The notes under the pieces are model-generated. The model had not been told where the DNA came from. It saw nothing but the letters and a program-made list of their open reading frames with translations, and made no database searches. From positions 1-35,983 of the IMG/VR virus record IMGVR_UViG_3300005471_000036: a DNA stretch of 35,983 nucleotides. The stretch is one strand, 5' to 3'. Of this stretch, positions 1 to 27,893 are shown piece by piece. How positions within the stretch are numbered: the first letter of the stretch is position 1; the number at the start of each line of letters is the position of its first letter. Both the position numbers and the translations under genes were made by a program. The DNA is from a virus.

Positions 1-345
1 TCGCTTGTCACGGCGCTGGCGAACATCCCGCGCGTCAGCGGTCGTCCGGTGTTCGTCTACCAGAACTACGGAGACATGATGTGGCTGTGGGGAGAGACGA
101 TCAAGCGCGCGAAGATCCAGCGCCTGACGCCGCACTGCTGCCGCCATGGCTTCGCTACCGAGCTGCTGCGGGCTGGCGTCGATGTCGTCACGGTCGCCTG
201 GCTGGGAGGATGGAGTTCGCCGGCTGAGGTGTTCAAGACCTACGGGCACGCACTCAAAGACCGGACGCTTACGAACGTCCTGGCTGGCACAAAATTGACA
301 CAGCCGATCGAGGAAGTGGTGAAAGCGTTGGAAAATACTGCATAA
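1..345 (+). CDS. int: Tyrosine-recombinase phage integrase, C-terminal part (5' end outside window)
   Basis: The reading frame is open from base 1, so the gene starts before the window; about 114 residues are visible. They hold the catalytic half of a tyrosine recombinase: the HxxRH box (TPHCCRHGFAT, about bases 130-160), a LGGWSS segment where many family members have LGHSS (Trp in place of the third His, an accepted variant), and the Tyr nucleophile in TYGHA near base 241. Such enzymes recombine attP with attB to insert or excise the phage. The C-terminus (GTKLTQP) is encoded by one copy of a 22-bp repeat that recurs in the next gene. The arm-binding and core-binding domains cannot be seen. 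Confidence 0.9.
   Translation, partial: SLVTALANIPRVSGRPVFVYQNYGDMMWLWGETIKRAKIQRLTPHCCRHGFATELLRAGVDVVTVAWLGGWSSPAEVFKTYGHALKDRTLTNVLAGTKLTQPIEEVVKALENTA
284..305 (+). repeat. 22-bp direct repeat, copy 1 (in integrase 3' end)
   Basis: Bases 284-305 are identical to 489-510, starting CTGGCACAAAA and ending TTGACACAGCC. In both places the frame reads GTKLTQP. The copies lie 205 bp apart in different genes. This could be a small duplication, an integrase arm-binding site or a control sequence; each copy contains a perfect TTGACA, but I see no good -10 box at 17 bp. Confidence 0.85.
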
Positions 346-430
346 TTTGACTTAACCAGCTTCCCACTGTTTGAACAGGGTTAAAATCGGTAGGCTCGAA
401 ATTCCCCTTATTTGCAGGAGCTTTAGGAAA

Positions 431-709
431 ATGAGCGATCTGGAAAACGACCAAACTGCCGTGAACGATCAGCGAACTCAGGCCGACTCTGGCACAAAAT
501 TGACACAGCCCCGTTCCGCCTTTGATCTGGAGGACGCGCGCCGCAACCTGATCGCCATGCGCGTCCGGTTCGGCGCCAACACGCCCAAGGGGCACGCCTG
601 CTCGAACCTCATTGAGCAGGTCAAGAACATGGCCGGCGCGACCGGAGATCAGAAGGCCAGCCTGCACAAGTCCATCAGCAAGTCGATCGCGAAACTTAAC
701 GCCGCATAG
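431..709 (+). CDS. Small phage protein of unknown function
   Basis: 92 residues from ATG 431, chosen because AGGAG (416-420) lies 10 bases upstream; a TTG at 371 in the same frame has no better ribosome site. The protein is hydrophilic and largely helical at its end (SLHKSISKSIAKLNAA), without a signal peptide or membrane segment. Near residue 20 it holds the GTKLTQP peptide shared with the integrase C-terminus through the 22-bp repeat. It is the first of a run of closely spaced plus-strand genes leading to rtcB. No family recognised. Confidence 0.65.
   Translation: MSDLENDQTAVNDQRTQADSGTKLTQPRSAFDLEDARRNLIAMRVRFGANTPKGHACSNLIEQVKNMAGATGDQKASLHKSISKSIAKLNAA
489..510 (+). repeat. 22-bp direct repeat, copy 2 (in the 431-709 gene)
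   Basis: Exact copy of 284-305; see that entry. It lies inside the coding frame of the following gene and is translated in the same frame as in the integrase. Confidence 0.85.
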
Positions 710-727
710 GGCGGCAGGAGGATGACG

Positions 728-1090
728 ATGGAGAGCGTTGAGCAACTTCAAAAAATAGCCGGCGAGGCCCAGGACAAGCTCTGGCAAATACAAGCCAACG
801 AGCGCCGTAAGGCCAACGGTTCTAAGGTCGGGAAGACCTTCCGAACGAGGAACAGCTATTCGTGCCCCGAGAAGCCTTCGGACTATTGGTGGCTTTGGGC
901 CAAGGTGACGCGGATGGACGACGGCGGAATGCTCTACGCCACCACGTTCCAAGTGGATAGGTACGGCTCGATCGACATTAAGCGCGATCAGTGCATCCAC
1001 CACGCGCAATGCTACACCCAATGCCCCGCGGCCGAGTTCAACCGGGCTTGGAAGGCCCTGCTGAGGTTGGTCAACAGCACTCTTCAGTAG
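728..1090 (+). CDS. Hypothetical phage protein with Cys/His residues
   Basis: 120 residues from ATG 728. Another ATG at 722 touches the AGGAGG at 716-721, whereas 728 lies six bases beyond it, a normal spacing. The N-terminus looks helical (MESVEQLQKIAGEAQDKLWQ). The middle is aromatic-rich (YWWLWAKVTRMDDGGMLYAT), and near the end a C-x4-HH-x2-C-x3-C cluster (DQCIHHAQCYTQC) might bind metal or form disulphides. No family recognised. Part of the plus-strand run before rtcB. Confidence 0.65.
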   Translation: MESVEQLQKIAGEAQDKLWQIQANERRKANGSKVGKTFRTRNSYSCPEKPSDYWWLWAKVTRMDDGGMLYATTFQVDRYGSIDIKRDQCIHHAQCYTQCPAAEFNRAWKALLRLVNSTLQ

Positions 1091-1108
1091 GCACAGGGAG
1101 ACTGCGGC

Positions 1109-1435
1109 ATGGGTTGCTTACCAGAATTCAAGGCGGGACGCGCGGAGGTCTGCACGATCGACCGCGTTACTGACCAAGGCGCCGGCCAAGAATATTTCGT
1201 CCGCCTGCCGGATGGCTATTTGCTGGCCTGCGGAAGCTACAAGGGAGCCGACAAGCGCGCTGATGCCATCGCCGGCCTCGTCAACGTCGTGATGCGCTGG
1301 GAGGGCGCTTGGCCGCCGATAGGCGTCATGGAAGCGGTTGTCGAGAACAACCTGATAGATGTGCTTCGAGATCGCATGGCCCGAGGCGAGCCGGTTCCTG
1401 ACCTCACCTTCCATGTCTCGAATGGAGAGCGCTGA
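1109..1435 (+). CDS. Hypothetical protein
   Basis: 108 residues; ATG 1109 follows GGGAG (1096-1100) at good spacing. Soluble, mixed alpha/beta composition, with a patch reading EYFVRLPDGYLLACGSYKG and a C-terminal helix before PDLTFHVSNGER. No motif or family recognised. The next gene follows seven bases after the stop codon, so they are probably co-transcribed. Confidence 0.6.
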   Translation: MGCLPEFKAGRAEVCTIDRVTDQGAGQEYFVRLPDGYLLACGSYKGADKRADAIAGLVNVVMRWEGAWPPIGVMEAVVENNLIDVLRDRMARGEPVPDLTFHVSNGER

Positions 1436-1441
1436 ACCCAG

Positions 1442-1819
1442 ATGCGCGTGATCCGTCGAAAGGGTTTCGGAGCAAGGGTCGAGGTGGCAGGAACGCCGCC
1501 CGATAGAAAGCGCCCCACGTTGCCTGCCGCGGCAATTGAGGAGATCAGCCGCACGCTAGAAGAACCGGCCGCGGTGATACTTGCGAGGCTACTTGAGCGC
1601 CGCATAGGGCGTGGTGGCGGGTTGCGCGACCCTCGCCCCGGCTTCTCACGGGATCGCTACCACACGTTCGCAGTCGATAGGTATGTCGAGGGCTGGATAA
1701 AGAAACAAGCGGATGAGCGCGGCCTTGCCCGCGGGGCGTTCATCGGAATGCTTCTAGAAGCTGCAACAGAAATGACCGCCGACGATCTTGATGATCTGCT
1801 GGCGGGTGACCGATCCTGA
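1442..1819 (+). CDS. Hypothetical protein, possibly ribbon-helix-helix-like
   Basis: 125 residues. The first 30 are basic and Pro-rich. The stretch at about residues 76-108 (TFAVDRYVEGWIKKQADERG and the LARGAFIGMLLEA that follows) has the strand-helix-turn-helix rhythm of ribbon-helix-helix DNA-binding proteins; this is inferred from pattern only. The acidic tail MTADDLDDLLAGD ends 20 bases before rtcB, so both probably share a transcript and this protein might regulate it. Confidence 0.55.
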   Translation: MRVIRRKGFGARVEVAGTPPDRKRPTLPAAAIEEISRTLEEPAAVILARLLERRIGRGGGLRDPRPGFSRDRYHTFAVDRYVEGWIKKQADERGLARGAFIGMLLEAATEMTADDLDDLLAGDRS

Positions 1820-1839
1820 CCGAATATCGAGGAACCCCC

Positions 1840-3183
1840 ATGCGAACAGACCCTTACCAGGCCCGCGCCCGTGAGCTTTGCCTTGCTGCCGGCATAGAGC
1901 CTGACAGCCGTATCGGCGAGGGCCGCGGACAGCCTGCGTGGTGCACGTTCCGGGATGAGGCAAGGAAAGAGCACGTCGCGGCGGAACAGGCATCAGTTGC
2001 CGCGGAGATGGCGGCAAACACTATCGCGCCACAGGCCCCGGAATATCAGAACAGCCCGCTAAAGGTCTTTGGCGACCACGACGGGAACACACTTGCCCAG
2101 ATGCGCAATTGCATGTCGATAGGCAACGCCGTGGCCGGCGTGATCTGCGCTGACGGTCATCTTGGCTATGCGCAGCCAGTCGGCGGTGTAATTGCCTATG
2201 AGGGCCAGATCAGCATTTCCGGGGTCGGCTTTGACATCGGTTGCGGCAATATGGCCGTGCGCCTGGATACTCCGTTCGCCGACATTCAGCCCCGTCTTGG
2301 CGAGATTATCAAGGACGTGCACAAGGTCATTTCGTTCGGCGTCGGGCGGACCAATGACGAGCGTGTCGAGCATGAGCTATTCGACGATTCGGATGCTTGG
2401 CGGGAGGCCGACCGCGAGGATTATCGCCAGAAGGCCGTGACCCAGCTCGGCACCGTAGGATCAGGCAACCATTACGTTGACCTGATGCGCGACGAGTCCG
2501 GCTTTGTCTGGATAGGCGTGCACTTCGGTTCGCGCGGCCTGGGGCATTCTAGCGCGACCAAATACCTCAAGGCGGCCGGCGGCAAGGACGGCATGAACGT
2601 CCCGCCCGCCGTGATCGACGAGGATTCCGAGATCGGCCGCCGCTACATTGCCGCCATGGAATTGGCGGGGCGATACTCCTACGCCGGCCGAGAATGGGTC
2701 GTGGAGCGCGTCCGCAAGATCATCGGCGGCAGCGTGACGGATATGGTGCACAACCATCATAACTACGCCTGGCGCGAGAACCACGGCGGGAAAGACCTGT
2801 GGGTTGTCCGCAAGGGCGCCACGCCTGCCTTCCCCGGCCAGCGAGGTTTCGTTGGCGGCTCGATGGGCGATGACGCTGTGATTATCGAGGGCGTCGATAG
2901 CGAGGAAGCGAAGGCGTCGCTCTATTCGACCATTCACGGCGCTGGCCGGCTGTTTGGCCGCAAGGAGGCCAAGCGTCGTTTTGACCGCAAGACGATGGAC
3001 GGCTGGTTGCAAGACCGCGGCGTCACGCTAATCGGCGGCGATCTGGACGAAAGCCCGATGGCATACAGGCGCCTGCCTGACGTGCTGGCGCATCATTCGG
3101 GGTCGACTAAGGTTCTGCATACGCTGCGGCCGTTCGCCGTCGCTATGGCGGGAGAAAACGAGTTTGACCCGTTCAAGGATTAA
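1840..3183 (+). CDS. rtcB: RtcB-type RNA-splicing ligase (3'-phosphate/5'-OH RNA ligase)
   Basis: 447 residues; GAGGA before ATG 1840. RtcB joins RNA ends carrying 2',3'-cyclic or 3'-phosphate to 5'-OH ends, using GTP and Mn(II), and repairs cleaved tRNAs. The family signatures are present: DGHLGY (105-110), GFDIGCGN (metal Cys135), GTVGSGNH (Asn210, metal His211), VHFGSRGLG (metal His228), MVHNHH (metal His304), RKGAT...GGSMG (324-343), HGAGR (guanylylated nucleophile His366) and DESPMAYR (403-410). All expected catalytic and metal residues are kept, so it should be active. Residues 1-65 (PYQARARELCLAAGIEPD..., AWCTFRDEARKEH) are an extension absent from ordinary RtcB and resemble small alphaproteobacterial phage proteins. 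The stop codon directly abuts a tRNA gene. I see no RtcA or archease. Confidence 0.95.
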   Translation: MRTDPYQARARELCLAAGIEPDSRIGEGRGQPAWCTFRDEARKEHVAAEQASVAAEMAANTIAPQAPEYQNSPLKVFGDHDGNTLAQMRNCMSIGNAVAGVICADGHLGYAQPVGGVIAYEGQISISGVGFDIGCGNMAVRLDTPFADIQPRLGEIIKDVHKVISFGVGRTNDERVEHELFDDSDAWREADREDYRQKAVTQLGTVGSGNHYVDLMRDESGFVWIGVHFGSRGLGHSSATKYLKAAGGKDGMNVPPAVIDEDSEIGRRYIAAMELAGRYSYAGREWVVERVRKIIGGSVTDMVHNHHNYAWRENHGGKDLWVVRKGATPAFPGQRGFVGGSMGDDAVIIEGVDSEEAKASLYSTIHGAGRLFGRKEAKRRFDRKTMDGWLQDRGVTLIGGDLDESPMAYRRLPDVLAHHSGSTKVLHTLRPFAVAMAGENEFDPFKD

Positions 3184-3260
3184 CTGTGTGTGGCGCAGTC
3201 CGGTAGCGCACATGATTTGGAATCATGGGGTCGCAGGTTCGAATCCTGCCACACAGACCA
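3184..3260 (+). tRNA. tRNA-Pro (UGG), phage-borne
   Basis: 77-nt cloverleaf, every arm paired: acceptor CTGTGTG/CACACAG, D-stem GCGC/GCGC, anticodon stem CATGA/TCATG with loop TTTGGAA (anticodon TGG at 3218-3220), T-arm GCAGG-TTCGAAT-CCTGC, discriminator A and an encoded CCA. C1:G72 with A73 are the identity elements of bacterial tRNA-Pro. Nucleotide 1 is the base after the rtcB TAA (3181-3183), so the tRNA is probably cut by RNase P out of the rtcB transcript. It has no intron. Confidence 0.95.
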
Positions 3261-3288
3261 CTTACACGCTCTTGAGCAGGGATTGACC

Positions 3289-3621
3289 ATGATAGACTTG
3301 AATGAAATTGCTAAGCACTGCGAGGAAGCCGCTGGCCCCGATCGCTCCATCGATGGCATGATAGCGATTGCCGTGGGTGCCACGATGCCAGACGATCCTG
3401 CCGGCTGGCCGCCTAGGTACACCGCATCGATCGACGCCGCGCTGACGCTGGTGCCGAAGGGCTTTGCAAGTGCAGTTGGCACGATGGCCTTTGAAGGGTC
3501 CCTCTCTAAGCCTTGGGGTTGCTATTGGGAGCCGAACGGCACGCCGCACACTTTTGAAGCCGCAACACCGGCCCTTGCCCTTTGCGCCGCCGCACTACGC
3601 GCCGCGCCCGCTCAGTCGTAA
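3289..3621 (+). CDS. Small phage protein, ABA-sandwich-like
   Basis: 110 residues from ATG 3289; an in-frame start at 3190 would lie within the tRNA and is rejected. The sequence has a pattern common to small tailed-phage proteins: an N-terminal helix (NEIAKHCEEAAGPDRSIDGM), then YTASIDAALTLVP, a short central beta region, and the C-terminal ATPALALCAAALRA helix. This resembles the phage ABA-sandwich family; its function is unknown. It follows the tRNA by 28 bases and is probably read from the same transcript. Confidence 0.75.
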   Translation: MIDLNEIAKHCEEAAGPDRSIDGMIAIAVGATMPDDPAGWPPRYTASIDAALTLVPKGFASAVGTMAFEGSLSKPWGCYWEPNGTPHTFEAATPALALCAAALRAAPAQS

Positions 3622-3634
3622 ACAGGCACAGCTA

Positions 3635-3814
3635 ATGCTCGCACAGATAAAATCACCCTACTTCACTGCCGGACTCGTCTTGGTTGAAGATATCGTGACG
3701 GAAGCGGCCCCGATCCTGAAGTTCATGATCGGATGGGGACGGGCTGGCGTGCGAGGTTACTGTCGGGGCCATGGCTGGGAAGTTAAAATCGTTCAACAGC
3801 AACCGCAGTCCTAA
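3635..3814 (+). CDS. Small conserved phage protein
   Basis: 59 residues from ATG 3635. The pattern SPYFTAGLVLVEDIVTEAAP followed by ILKFMIGWGRAGVRGYCRGHGW is one I recognise from small genes in alphaproteobacterial prophages; no function is known. A longer in-frame ORF starting at 3464 overlaps the previous gene and is not supported. Starts 13 bases after the preceding stop codon. Confidence 0.7.
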   Translation: MLAQIKSPYFTAGLVLVEDIVTEAAPILKFMIGWGRAGVRGYCRGHGWEVKIVQQQPQS

Positions 3815-3829
3815 GCGAACATCGGGGCC

Positions 3830-4138
3830 ATGCGCGCAATAGACAGGACGACAAAACTATTTGTGGCCTCAGTGAAGGAGGCGCTGCCGAATACGGGCAT
3901 CCAAGTGCAGCGATCGACCGCCGCTCATGGCCGCTCCAATTACGTCTACATCATCCTAGGTGGAGGCCGGCGCAGCCTGAAGGTTCGCATCTCGGACCAC
4001 GCAGTGGGGATGCGAAGGGCTCTCTATGGCCAAGAGGACTTGTTTGTCCACCATCTCGCAAAGCCGTCGAGCTGGGCGGTTTGGGTCAGCCGATTGCCGC
4101 AGTTCCTCACTGCTGGCCAATCTGCGCACGACTCCTGA
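3830..4138 (+). CDS. Hypothetical phage protein
   Basis: 102 residues, last gene of the plus-strand left block. The core RSNYVYIILGGGRRSLKVRI with SDHAVGMRRALYGQ and AKPSSWAVWVSRL resembles small phage proteins of Hyphomicrobiales prophages; function unknown. The ribosome site is weak (GGGGCC before ATG). The terminator just downstream at 4142-4175 belongs mainly to the opposing late operon. Confidence 0.65.
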   Translation: MRAIDRTTKLFVASVKEALPNTGIQVQRSTAAHGRSNYVYIILGGGRRSLKVRISDHAVGMRRALYGQEDLFVHHLAKPSSWAVWVSRLPQFLTAGQSAHDS

Positions 4139-4141
4139 AAC

Positions 4142-4175
4142 AAAAAAAGCCCGACCACCTTTCGGCAGCCGGGCT
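4142..4175 (-). terminator. Rho-independent terminator ending the leftward late operon
   Basis: On the minus strand AGCCCG (4175-4170) pairs with CGGGCT (4153-4148), with inner pairing in the loop, and is followed by a run of seven T. It lies between convergent blocks: the late/lysis operon (last gene 4260) and the plus-strand rtcB block (last gene ends 4138). On the plus strand the hairpin lacks a T run. Confidence 0.8.
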
Positions 4176-4259
4176 CAAGTCTGGGAGGGCGCTAAACAGC
4201 GCAGTCCTACCGAGCAAGGAAACGGGAGCCCGGTAGTTTGAACGGCTACTCAGCCGAAT

Positions 4260-4427
4260 TCAATTGAACCACCACGCAAGCCAGAGGACAGCAACGCCAA
4301 TCCAGGCAATGATGATCGATCCGAGGCCGAAGAACTCCCCCTGTGACGACCGCATTCCATTGGCGAACAGAACAACAGCGGTCCAGAGGACAGCCAAGGC
4401 GGTTCCGAGGCCGGCGAAGATGATCAC
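4260..4427 (-). CDS. Small two-helix membrane protein (GTG start)
   Basis: 55 residues. The start is GTG 4427, set by AAGGAG eight bases upstream; its GTGA overlaps the stop of the previous gene. Two hydrophobic helices: about residues 3-23 (IFAGLGTALAVLWTAVVLFA) and 35-54 (GLGSIIIAWIGVAVLWLAWW), joined by a short polar loop. Last gene of the lysis/late operon. A holin- or moron-like membrane role is possible; no family recognised. Confidence 0.7.
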   Translation of the reverse strand: MIIFAGLGTALAVLWTAVVLFANGMRSSQGEFFGLGSIIIAWIGVAVLWLAWWFN

Positions 4428-6886: not shown

Positions 6887-7801
6887 TCAATGAACCTTTG
6901 GTTTGAAGAGATCGACGACGCGACCCCAGAAGGTCGGGGCGAGATTAGCGCGTGCTTTGGAGCCCGGAGGCGGCAGGATGATTTCCGGCGGCACGGGCAT
7001 GGTTGCCAGCGTCTTGCCTTCCTTCAATGCCGCTTCGATAGCTGCGAGCGTGGCGGGGCCGACAAGGCCATCTACGACAAGCCCGCGCTCCAACTGGAAA
7101 GACCGAACTGCGTTGCGTGTTGCGGGACCGACCGAGCCATCAACCACCAGAGGCGGCTTGGCGCCCAGCTTGTTCAGCGAGGTTTGCAACCATGCGCCGT
7201 CCCTGATATCGACGGGCGGCGGGGGTAGTATCGGACCCTTGGCGTCACCAAACTTGATCGATGGGTCAAGCACCATCATGGCAAGGATCAGGCCCGCACA
7301 TCCCGGCTGGGTATCGATCGCATCGGGATCGTAAGCGCCATCCCTGATGTACTTGCCGGAACTATATTGATTGGTGCCCGCCCAAACGTAGGGTGATGGT
7401 CTGCCGCGCTTGTAATAACCGAGGCCGTTATATTCCTCCAACCTCGTGAGCGTCCCGGCGTCCGACCAATCCTTGTTCCTTGCCAGCCACGGACCACAAC
7501 TCACCAAAGCGTCAATGGCGGCTTCTTCCCAGCTATTGAACGGCCCTCGCCCCGCCGGCACATGTACCGAAACCCGGTTCCACGGATCGCCTTGAGCAAG
7601 TGACCCGCCCCAGCTCTGCGAACTCTCCCGCATGTGGATTACGGCAATGACGAACCAGGGAACGCCGGTCTTGGACTCCACCGCCTGATAGCGCGCCTTT
7701 GCTGCCACAAGCCGCTTTGCGGTTGCCGTTACGTCACGGGTGACCTTGGCGGCATTCCAGCGTTTCGCATTCGCTGCCTTTAACGGCGCGGTATCGACCA
7801 T
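6887..7801 (-). CDS. Endolysin: lysozyme-like domain plus peptidoglycan-binding domain
   Basis: 304 residues from ATG 7801; an upstream in-frame extension to 7948 is antisense to the forward ORF island and is rejected. Residues 40-180 match a lysozyme-like domain common in Bradyrhizobium-type prophages: HMRESS (candidate catalytic Glu59), LAQGDPW, VHVPAGRGPF, LEEYNGLGYY, SPYVWAGTNQY and GAYDPDAIDTQPGCAG. Residues 200-258 are a peptidoglycan-binding type 1 domain (VVDGSVGPATRNAVRSFQ...GLVVDGLVGPATLAAI). It would cleave the cell wall at lysis. No signal peptide is seen, so export depends on the neighbouring holins. First gene of the lysis block. Confidence 0.9.
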   Translation of the reverse strand: MVDTAPLKAANAKRWNAAKVTRDVTATAKRLVAAKARYQAVESKTGVPWFVIAVIHMRESSQSWGGSLAQGDPWNRVSVHVPAGRGPFNSWEEAAIDALVSCGPWLARNKDWSDAGTLTRLEEYNGLGYYKRGRPSPYVWAGTNQYSSGKYIRDGAYDPDAIDTQPGCAGLILAMMVLDPSIKFGDAKGPILPPPPVDIRDGAWLQTSLNKLGAKPPLVVDGSVGPATRNAVRSFQLERGLVVDGLVGPATLAAIEAALKEGKTLATMPVPPEIILPPPGSKARANLAPTFWGRVVDLFKPKVH

Positions 7802-27816: not shown

Positions 27817-27893
27817 TGGTTGCAGGGGCGGGATTTGAACCCGCGACCTCTTGGTTATGAGCCAAGCGAGCTACCGGACTGCTCCACCCTACT
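27817..27893 (-). tRNA. tRNA-Met (CAU), initiator-like, phage-borne
   Basis: 77 nt on the minus strand. D-stem GAGC/GCTC, anticodon stem CTTGG/CCAAG with loop CTCATAA (anticodon at 27859-27857), T-arm GCGGG-TTCAAAT-CCCGC, CCA encoded. Initiator marks: no pair at positions 1:72 (A with A), a purine-pyrimidine A11:U24, and a D-loop/T-arm close to E. coli tRNA-fMet. Two of the three G:C pairs of the anticodon stem are kept; 29:41 is U:A. Tight fit to an initiator; elongator-Met or tRNA-Ile2 (lysidine) are alternatives, less likely because of the 1:72 mismatch. Confidence 0.9.

Follow-up and report, generated by a model that had tools for sequence, protein, structure and literature searches.

The virus record studied here, a linear stretch of 35,983 bp that was analysed over its whole length (the window), carries a gene of the RtcB RNA ligase family that runs directly into a complete tRNA-Pro(UGG) gene, and our analysis of viral rtcB loci revealed that the pairing of rtcB with tRNA-Pro goes beyond chance. 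Judging from the boundaries of DNA homology, the two genes look like a portable cassette that was moved as a unit between phage backgrounds, and the linked tRNA-Pro is strongly biased towards A at position 37. We consider the chances about even that phages possessing this two-gene portable cassette use it for counter-defence, repairing and replacing proline tRNA broken by a host nuclease during infection.

The rtcB gene and its neighbourhood

The genes of the window include those of terminase, portal, major head, tail, endolysin, replication and methyltransferase proteins (PHROG); the features around rtcB are listed in Table 1. ARAGORN and Rfam agree on the complete tRNA-Pro(UGG) at 3184-3260 and, as rtcB ends at 3183, the spacer between the two genes is 0 nt, exactly as the original prediction had it. 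Co-transcription of the pair, also proposed there, is plausible: both genes lie on the same strand (as do all genes from 371 to 4138, on the + strand), no convincing + strand terminator was found between them, and separate promoters, named at that time as evidence against the proposal, did not emerge from a sequence scan, in which the stretch from 346 to 4138 yielded nothing resembling a promoter. The sole promoter-like match (319-346) is no better than those that shuffled sequences yield. A strong terminator-like hairpin at 4147-4176 is read on the - strand and would end opposing genes.

Table 1. Features of the window in the region of rtcB and tRNA-Pro
Feature	Coordinates	Strand	Evidence
Tyrosine integrase, C-terminal part, start missing at the window edge	1..345	+	PF00589 1.3e-10, PHROG 1
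Four small ORFs 5' of rtcB, same direction	371-709, 722-1090, 1109-1435, 1442-1819	+	no function assigned
rtcB, predicted RNA 3'-phosphate (cyclic phosphate)/5'-OH ligase, subfamily with the C-terminus VAMAG...DPFKD	1840..3183	+	PF01139, PHROG 1075, predicted fold
tRNA-Pro(UGG), CCA encoded, anticodon loop UUUGGAA (A37), C1:G72, A73	3184..3260	+	ARAGORN, Rfam tRNA 70.4 bits
Putative portable cassette, the stretch homologous to locus L012, up to the tRNA 3' end	1840..3264	+	blastn
Two small ORFs 3' of tRNA-Pro	3289-3621, 3830-4138	+	no family match (Pfam, PHROG)

The four ORFs within 371..1819 gave no Pfam, NCBIfam or PHROG matches and have no counterparts among the other rtcB loci collected. 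As to other tRNAs, the second one of the window is tRNA-Met(CAU) at 27817-27893 on the - strand (Rfam, 61 bits); it has an unpaired A1:A72, an initiator-like mismatch, yet lacks the three G-C pairs of the initiator anticodon stem.

The rtcB ORF (447 aa, ATG...GAT TAA) matches Pfam PF01139 with E=2.5e-65 and PHROG 1075 with E=1.2e-72, and the predicted fold of its product matches solved RtcB structures (Foldseek; 1uc2/4dwq, 1e-26 to 1e-25). By domain and fold the protein is a member of the RtcB family with predicted ligation activity; it does not belong to the PrfH-associated RtcB2 group (TIGR03073), whose NCBIfam cut-off (271.8) is far above the 86 bits that it scored. Genes of this family are widespread in phages, being present in 649 of 50,697 phage records. 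The claim that all catalytic residues are intact was confirmed only in part. In the alignment, D132/C135, N210/H211, H228, H307 and H366 of the window protein correspond to D95/C98, N202/H203, H234, H329 and H404 of the Pyrococcus enzyme, and the metal and guanylylation residues are invariant across 31 aligned relatives; however, the conserved C-terminal lysine (Pyrococcus K480) is replaced by Met436. M436 is likewise invariant in the 31 aligned relatives, all of which end in VAMAG...DPxKD, and the divergent phage RtcBs of loci L285 and L438 retain VKG/IKG at the lysine site. As aligned, the window RtcB thus belongs to a subfamily in which a single active-site position is changed, and due to this replacement its ligase activity is not assured. 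Another lysine, K446, which might take the place of the lost one, sits in its new C-terminal tail, which has low confidence in the structure model.

Among the matches listed, the same subfamily (about 80% identity) occurs in many Bradyrhizobium species (L044-L107). In four of these loci (L052, L057, L080 and L107) a tRNA-Cys(GCA) lies 23-24 nt downstream of rtcB, and in L050, where rtcB is embedded in a long array of tRNA genes, an A37 tRNA-Pro(CGG) precedes it by about 30 bp.

Recurrence and probable mobility of the pair

Viral rtcB loci were retrieved from IMG/VR, the queries representing three RtcB families, and all of the loci were searched for tRNA genes with ARAGORN; the non-redundant set comprises 172 loci, and the counts cover the matches listed. 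The cellular rtcB loci, from GTDB genomes, are likewise the matches listed, and no frequencies for cellular genomes are derivable from them. Two scans, seeded with two-sequence alignments, contributed few loci. Five loci first met via their tRNA-Pro (the window, L439, L442, L453 and L458) were dropped in the corrected figures, which may still retain some ascertainment bias, since relatives of seeds found by tRNA-Pro were also collected. Most loci are metagenomic contigs with uncertain hosts, and the "host" genomes mentioned below represent the order and phylum of the Bradyrhizobium relatives and not an established host of this phage.

The search for rtcB near tRNA genes that the original prediction had suggested bore out the association. 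Proline tRNAs make up 20 of the 34 tRNAs within 150 bp of viral rtcB and 7 of the 122 lying more than 1 kb away; without the five ascertained loci the proportions are 17/30 and 7/122 (Fisher 1.5e-9). The nearest tRNA within 300 bp of rtcB is tRNA-Pro in 20 of 31 cases among the 172 loci (17/27 after correction), as is the only tRNA in 18 of the 25 single-tRNA rtcB loci (14/21). These counts are not fully corrected for relatedness, and a test on the RtcB tree shows no clustering: when the 24 Pro-linked genes are mapped onto a tree of 170 viral RtcBs, 22 changes are required, which is within the range for shuffled labels (20-24). The pairing therefore looks repeatedly gained and lost and not inherited from one ancestor. 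Close relatives without the tRNA, which had been considered as possible grounds for rejecting the cassette, do exist (e.g., L004 and L031, with 84% and 81% identity, respectively), but on the tree their presence looks like the same frequent gain and loss.

Pairs of this kind occur in divergent families of RtcB, and the tRNA may lie upstream or downstream of rtcB and on the same or the opposite strand. Among 24 linked tRNA-Pro genes, 13 are downstream and 7 upstream on the same strand, and the inverted ones are downstream in two cases and upstream in two. With the tRNA upstream in 9/24 and on the opposite strand in 4/24, neither co-transcription nor the control of rtcB mRNA ends by RNase P, suggested initially, can be the general logic of the arrangement. 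L006 shares the 0-nt spacing of the window; in L012 the two genes overlap (gap -4), with the stop codon inside the tRNA, and short gaps separate them in L003 (+4), L008 (+7) and L178 (+7); in L010 the tRNA-Pro abuts rtcB in antisense. In the latter locus (7345-7574) the inverted tRNA-Pro is followed by a tRNA-like sequence at 7501-7574 (Rfam, 48.5 bits), which was missed by ARAGORN.

In 16 of the 17 cultured phage records checked, no tRNA-Pro adjoins rtcB; the only one that has it is Tunturiibacter phage Tunturi_5, and there the tRNA is of the CGG, G37 type. This cultured jumbo phage (L561) contains, at 4236-4400, two unannotated tRNA-Pro(CGG) genes directly 3' of rtcB, the first of them 47-48 nt past the rtcB stop and with G37. 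Conversely, 113 of 119 viral loci with A37 tRNA-Pro are without RtcB, and such tRNAs also occur without it in T5-like and jumbo phages, so each of the two genes can stand alone.

For the window-type rtcB, DNA homology between phages begins at or inside rtcB and ends at the tRNA 3' end. In blastn comparisons with the window it extends over 1840-3264 in L012, 1840-3243 in L002, 1932-3261 in L003 and 1939-3261 in L006. None of the other rtcB loci has relatives of the ORFs that directly flank the pair; weak matches, in a few loci, were confined to the integrase, the endolysin and one large ORF of the window. In L002 (89% identity) the tRNA-Pro breaks off in the T loop (GGTTCGAA), after position 7344, and is followed by unrelated DNA; this truncated copy is a recombination scar or an inactivated gene.

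Base 37 and the integrity of the linked tRNA-Pro

The window tRNA-Pro has a cloverleaf, the UGG anticodon, C1:G72, A73 and an encoded CCA, and it deviates at position 37, where A stands in place of the G that is the TrmD (m1G37) site. The same holds for most of its counterparts: the A37:G37 ratio in rtcB-linked tRNA-Pro(UGG) is 19:3, against 13:68 in other viral tRNA-Pro(UGG) (80 loci listed), the latter set coming from a scan in which neither rtcB nor base 37 was taken into account and the former consisting of linked tRNAs that fit the same pattern. Without the ascertained loci the ratio for linked tRNAs is 15:2 (p=2e-8), and the A37 excess is significant in every tRNA-count class, that is, in loci with few or many tRNAs. 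Within 1 kb of rtcB, linked tRNA-Pro comprise 22 A37 and 3 G37 genes with the UGG anticodon and 6 A37 and no G37 genes with CGG. Viewed from the side of the tRNA, when viral loci were collected by their A37 tRNA-Pro irrespective of rtcB, 6 of 119 contained this gene, in all six cases within about 300 bp, and among 124 loci with G37 tRNA-Pro only one did, at a distance of 451 bp.

In host-order genomes the G37 pattern of tRNA-Pro(UGG) was found in 37 of 41; the A37 pattern was found in none of the 399 sampled genomes of the phylum and in two of the 150 of the order. In 31 linked tRNA-Pro the determinants of charging, C1:G72 and A73, are preserved (L129 being read with a partial CCA), although the median identity of the linked tRNAs is only 67%. 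The linked tRNA-Pro thus give the impression of tRNAs that can be charged and that bear a single selected change.

Of the two order genomes with A37 tRNA-Pro, one carries this gene in an RNA-repair island (L588; G080:C9, 4545-10465), which comprises Ro60 (Rsr), YrlA, the A37 tRNA-Pro(UGG), a second tRNA-like gene, another YrlA, RtcB and two RlaP proteins. We regard the island as an independent hint that A37 tRNA-Pro is connected with RNA repair; it also leaves room for a scaffold or signalling role of the tRNA. A link of the phage pair to Y RNA and Ro60 was rejected, since no YrlA was detected in the 17 phage rtcB loci scanned and it was met only in this cellular island.

Possible functions and known systems

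As the recurrent pair appears to move as a unit, a joint role of rtcB and tRNA-Pro is likely. The repair-and-replace cassette against anticodon nucleases, initially proposed for the window, survives in a modified form: the pair is recurrent and appears to be mobile, and A37 strengthens the replacement half of the idea, but the nucleases named as attackers (PrrC, RloC and colicin E5) are unsuited. PrrC cuts tRNA-Lys, colicin E5 cuts the tRNAs for Tyr, His, Asn and Asp, and we know of no cleavage of tRNA-Pro by any of the three, so the attacker must be another enzyme. The proposed course of events is as follows. A hypothetical host ribonuclease, the cleavage by which would depend on G37 or methyl-G37, would break proline tRNA at infection and leave 2',3'-cyclic-phosphate and 5'-OH ends, such as metal-independent ribonucleases produce. 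RtcB, which joins 2',3'-cyclic-phosphate or 3'-phosphate ends to 5'-OH ends (PMC7824862), would reseal the broken host tRNA-Pro, and the phage A37 tRNA-Pro could act as a cleavage-resistant replacement, still chargeable by prolyl-tRNA synthetase. Against this reading stand the Met436 replacement in this RtcB subfamily, the many phages that have RtcB without tRNA-Pro or A37 tRNA-Pro without RtcB, as well as the Bradyrhizobium chromosomes with the same RtcB subfamily, which, among the matches listed, are mostly without an adjoining tRNA-Pro.

More tentatively, and with less than even confidence, we suppose that Alphaproteobacteria and other hosts may carry an undiscovered phage-defence ribonuclease which would recognize tRNA-Pro(UGG) via (methyl-)G37 and generate cyclic-phosphate/5'-OH ends; the RtcB/A37 pairing would then be its evolutionary footprint, with the tRNA showing both the target and the escape position. 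To our knowledge, no bacterial nuclease with a tRNA-Pro target and cyclic-phosphate/5'-OH chemistry has been described, and none of this profile was found in the literature searched; target-activated Cas13a leaves tRNA-Pro unaffected (PMC11042736). A nuclease specific for all G36-G37 (TrmD) tRNAs may be considered as well, being suggested by Leu(UAG) and Arg(CCG) among the second partners; however, such cases are too few, and phage tRNA-Leu(UAG) commonly has A37 even without RtcB.

Other explanations do not require a nuclease. The tRNA gene might be a recombination handle, its conserved T loop and 3' end being used for the swapping of cargo like rtcB and its coding function being secondary. 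tRNA genes are common points of exchange and integration, and both the stop of homology exactly at the tRNA 3' end and the truncation inside the T loop in L002 would fit; however, any tRNA would do for this purpose, yet Pro with A37 dominates, the tRNA is often upstream or inverted, and its charging determinants are retained, and we consider such a role rather unlikely. Somewhat fainter in our estimation is the prospect that the tRNA or its halves control rtcB expression or recruit the repair enzyme. In Salmonella, cyclic-phosphate tRNA halves activate RtcR, and 5' tRNA halves switch on the rtcBA operon (PMC7790460); moreover, the single alphaproteobacterial island described above unites Ro60, Y RNAs, A37 tRNA-Pro and RtcB. 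Nevertheless, the varying positions and orientations of the tRNA, the lack of Y RNA in all 17 phage loci scanned and that of RtcR beside the window genes speak against a regulatory or scaffold function.

It is also improbable, in our view, that the A37 tRNA-Pro serves merely for translation of proline codons bypassing methylation by TrmD, the rtcB link reflecting common cargo of RNA metabolism. In tRNAs that read codons beginning with C (except CAN), m1G37 is formed at position 37 (PMC13191261), and phage tRNA-Leu(UAG), another TrmD-type tRNA, has A37 in 65 of 87 cases (in loci selected for tRNA-Pro), so phages may have lost G37 more widely. This explanation, however, leaves the proximity to rtcB unaccounted for, and there is no clear codon-supply signal, because CCA, CCG and CCT together make up about 78% of proline codons in the window and in Bradyrhizobium ORFs alike. 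Finally, despite the integrase C-terminus about 1.5 kb upstream of the window rtcB and another one downstream of the L012 tRNA, it is very improbable that tRNA-Pro is an attP/attL copy of a host tRNA with rtcB as adjoining cargo, since an att core must match the host tRNA in its 3' part and the phage acceptor strand (CACACAGACCA) is unlike the host ones (...CCCCGACCA or CTCCGACCA) in all 37 matched host-order genomes, A37 also differs, and phage genes lie on both flanks of the tRNA.

To return to the counter-defence cassette, its component ideas, namely the repair of cut tRNA by a phage ligase and the escape through changes in the anticodon loop, are already known. For the RtcB/tRNA-Pro pair and the A37 signature no earlier report was found in a search that left subscription papers and recent preprints mostly outside, so their novelty is not proven. 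The pairing singles out proline tRNA as a candidate substrate of RtcB and position 37 as a candidate site of escape, both directly testable, and offers a way towards the putative attacking nuclease; the identity of a neighbouring tRNA may, moreover, hint at the target of an anti-defence ligase.

A close functional parallel is provided by phage T4, whose ligase, according to work cited in PMC10264068, reseals the tRNA cut by PrrC. There, too, a phage RNA ligase undoes host anticodon cleavage (Pnkp/Rnl1 against PrrC), and T4 also has a tRNA-Pro; however, the T4 system consists of a kinase and an ATP-dependent ligase acting on tRNA-Lys, in contrast to RtcB and the linked A37 tRNA-Pro of the window, and the T4 tRNA-Pro has G37 and does not adjoin the ligase gene. 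RtcB of cluster K mycobacteriophages was said to "likely" protect the phage from tRNA cleavage (PMC8527509); the tRNA reported for them is Trp, not Pro, and the record of mycobacteriophage Ximenita has no tRNA near rtcB. The bacterial rtcBA and Rsr-YrlA operons (PMC7790460) resemble the phage pair in coupling RtcB to tRNA damage, and in the cellular island L588 an A37 tRNA-Pro accompanies rtcB as in the window, being located there between the Y RNAs and rtcB; unlike these operons, the phage loci scanned have no detected Y RNA, and there is no Rsr, RtcA or RtcR beside the window rtcB. As for phage tRNAs, they were proposed to evade tRNA-cutting defences via anticodon-loop changes (PMC10264068) and act against retrons (PMC11555353). 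The main texts of these two papers name neither tRNA-Pro nor RtcB, and the former does not deal with position 37. An altered anticodon loop could resist cleavage in those systems and in the window alike; in the window, unlike in them, the tRNA travels with a repair ligase.
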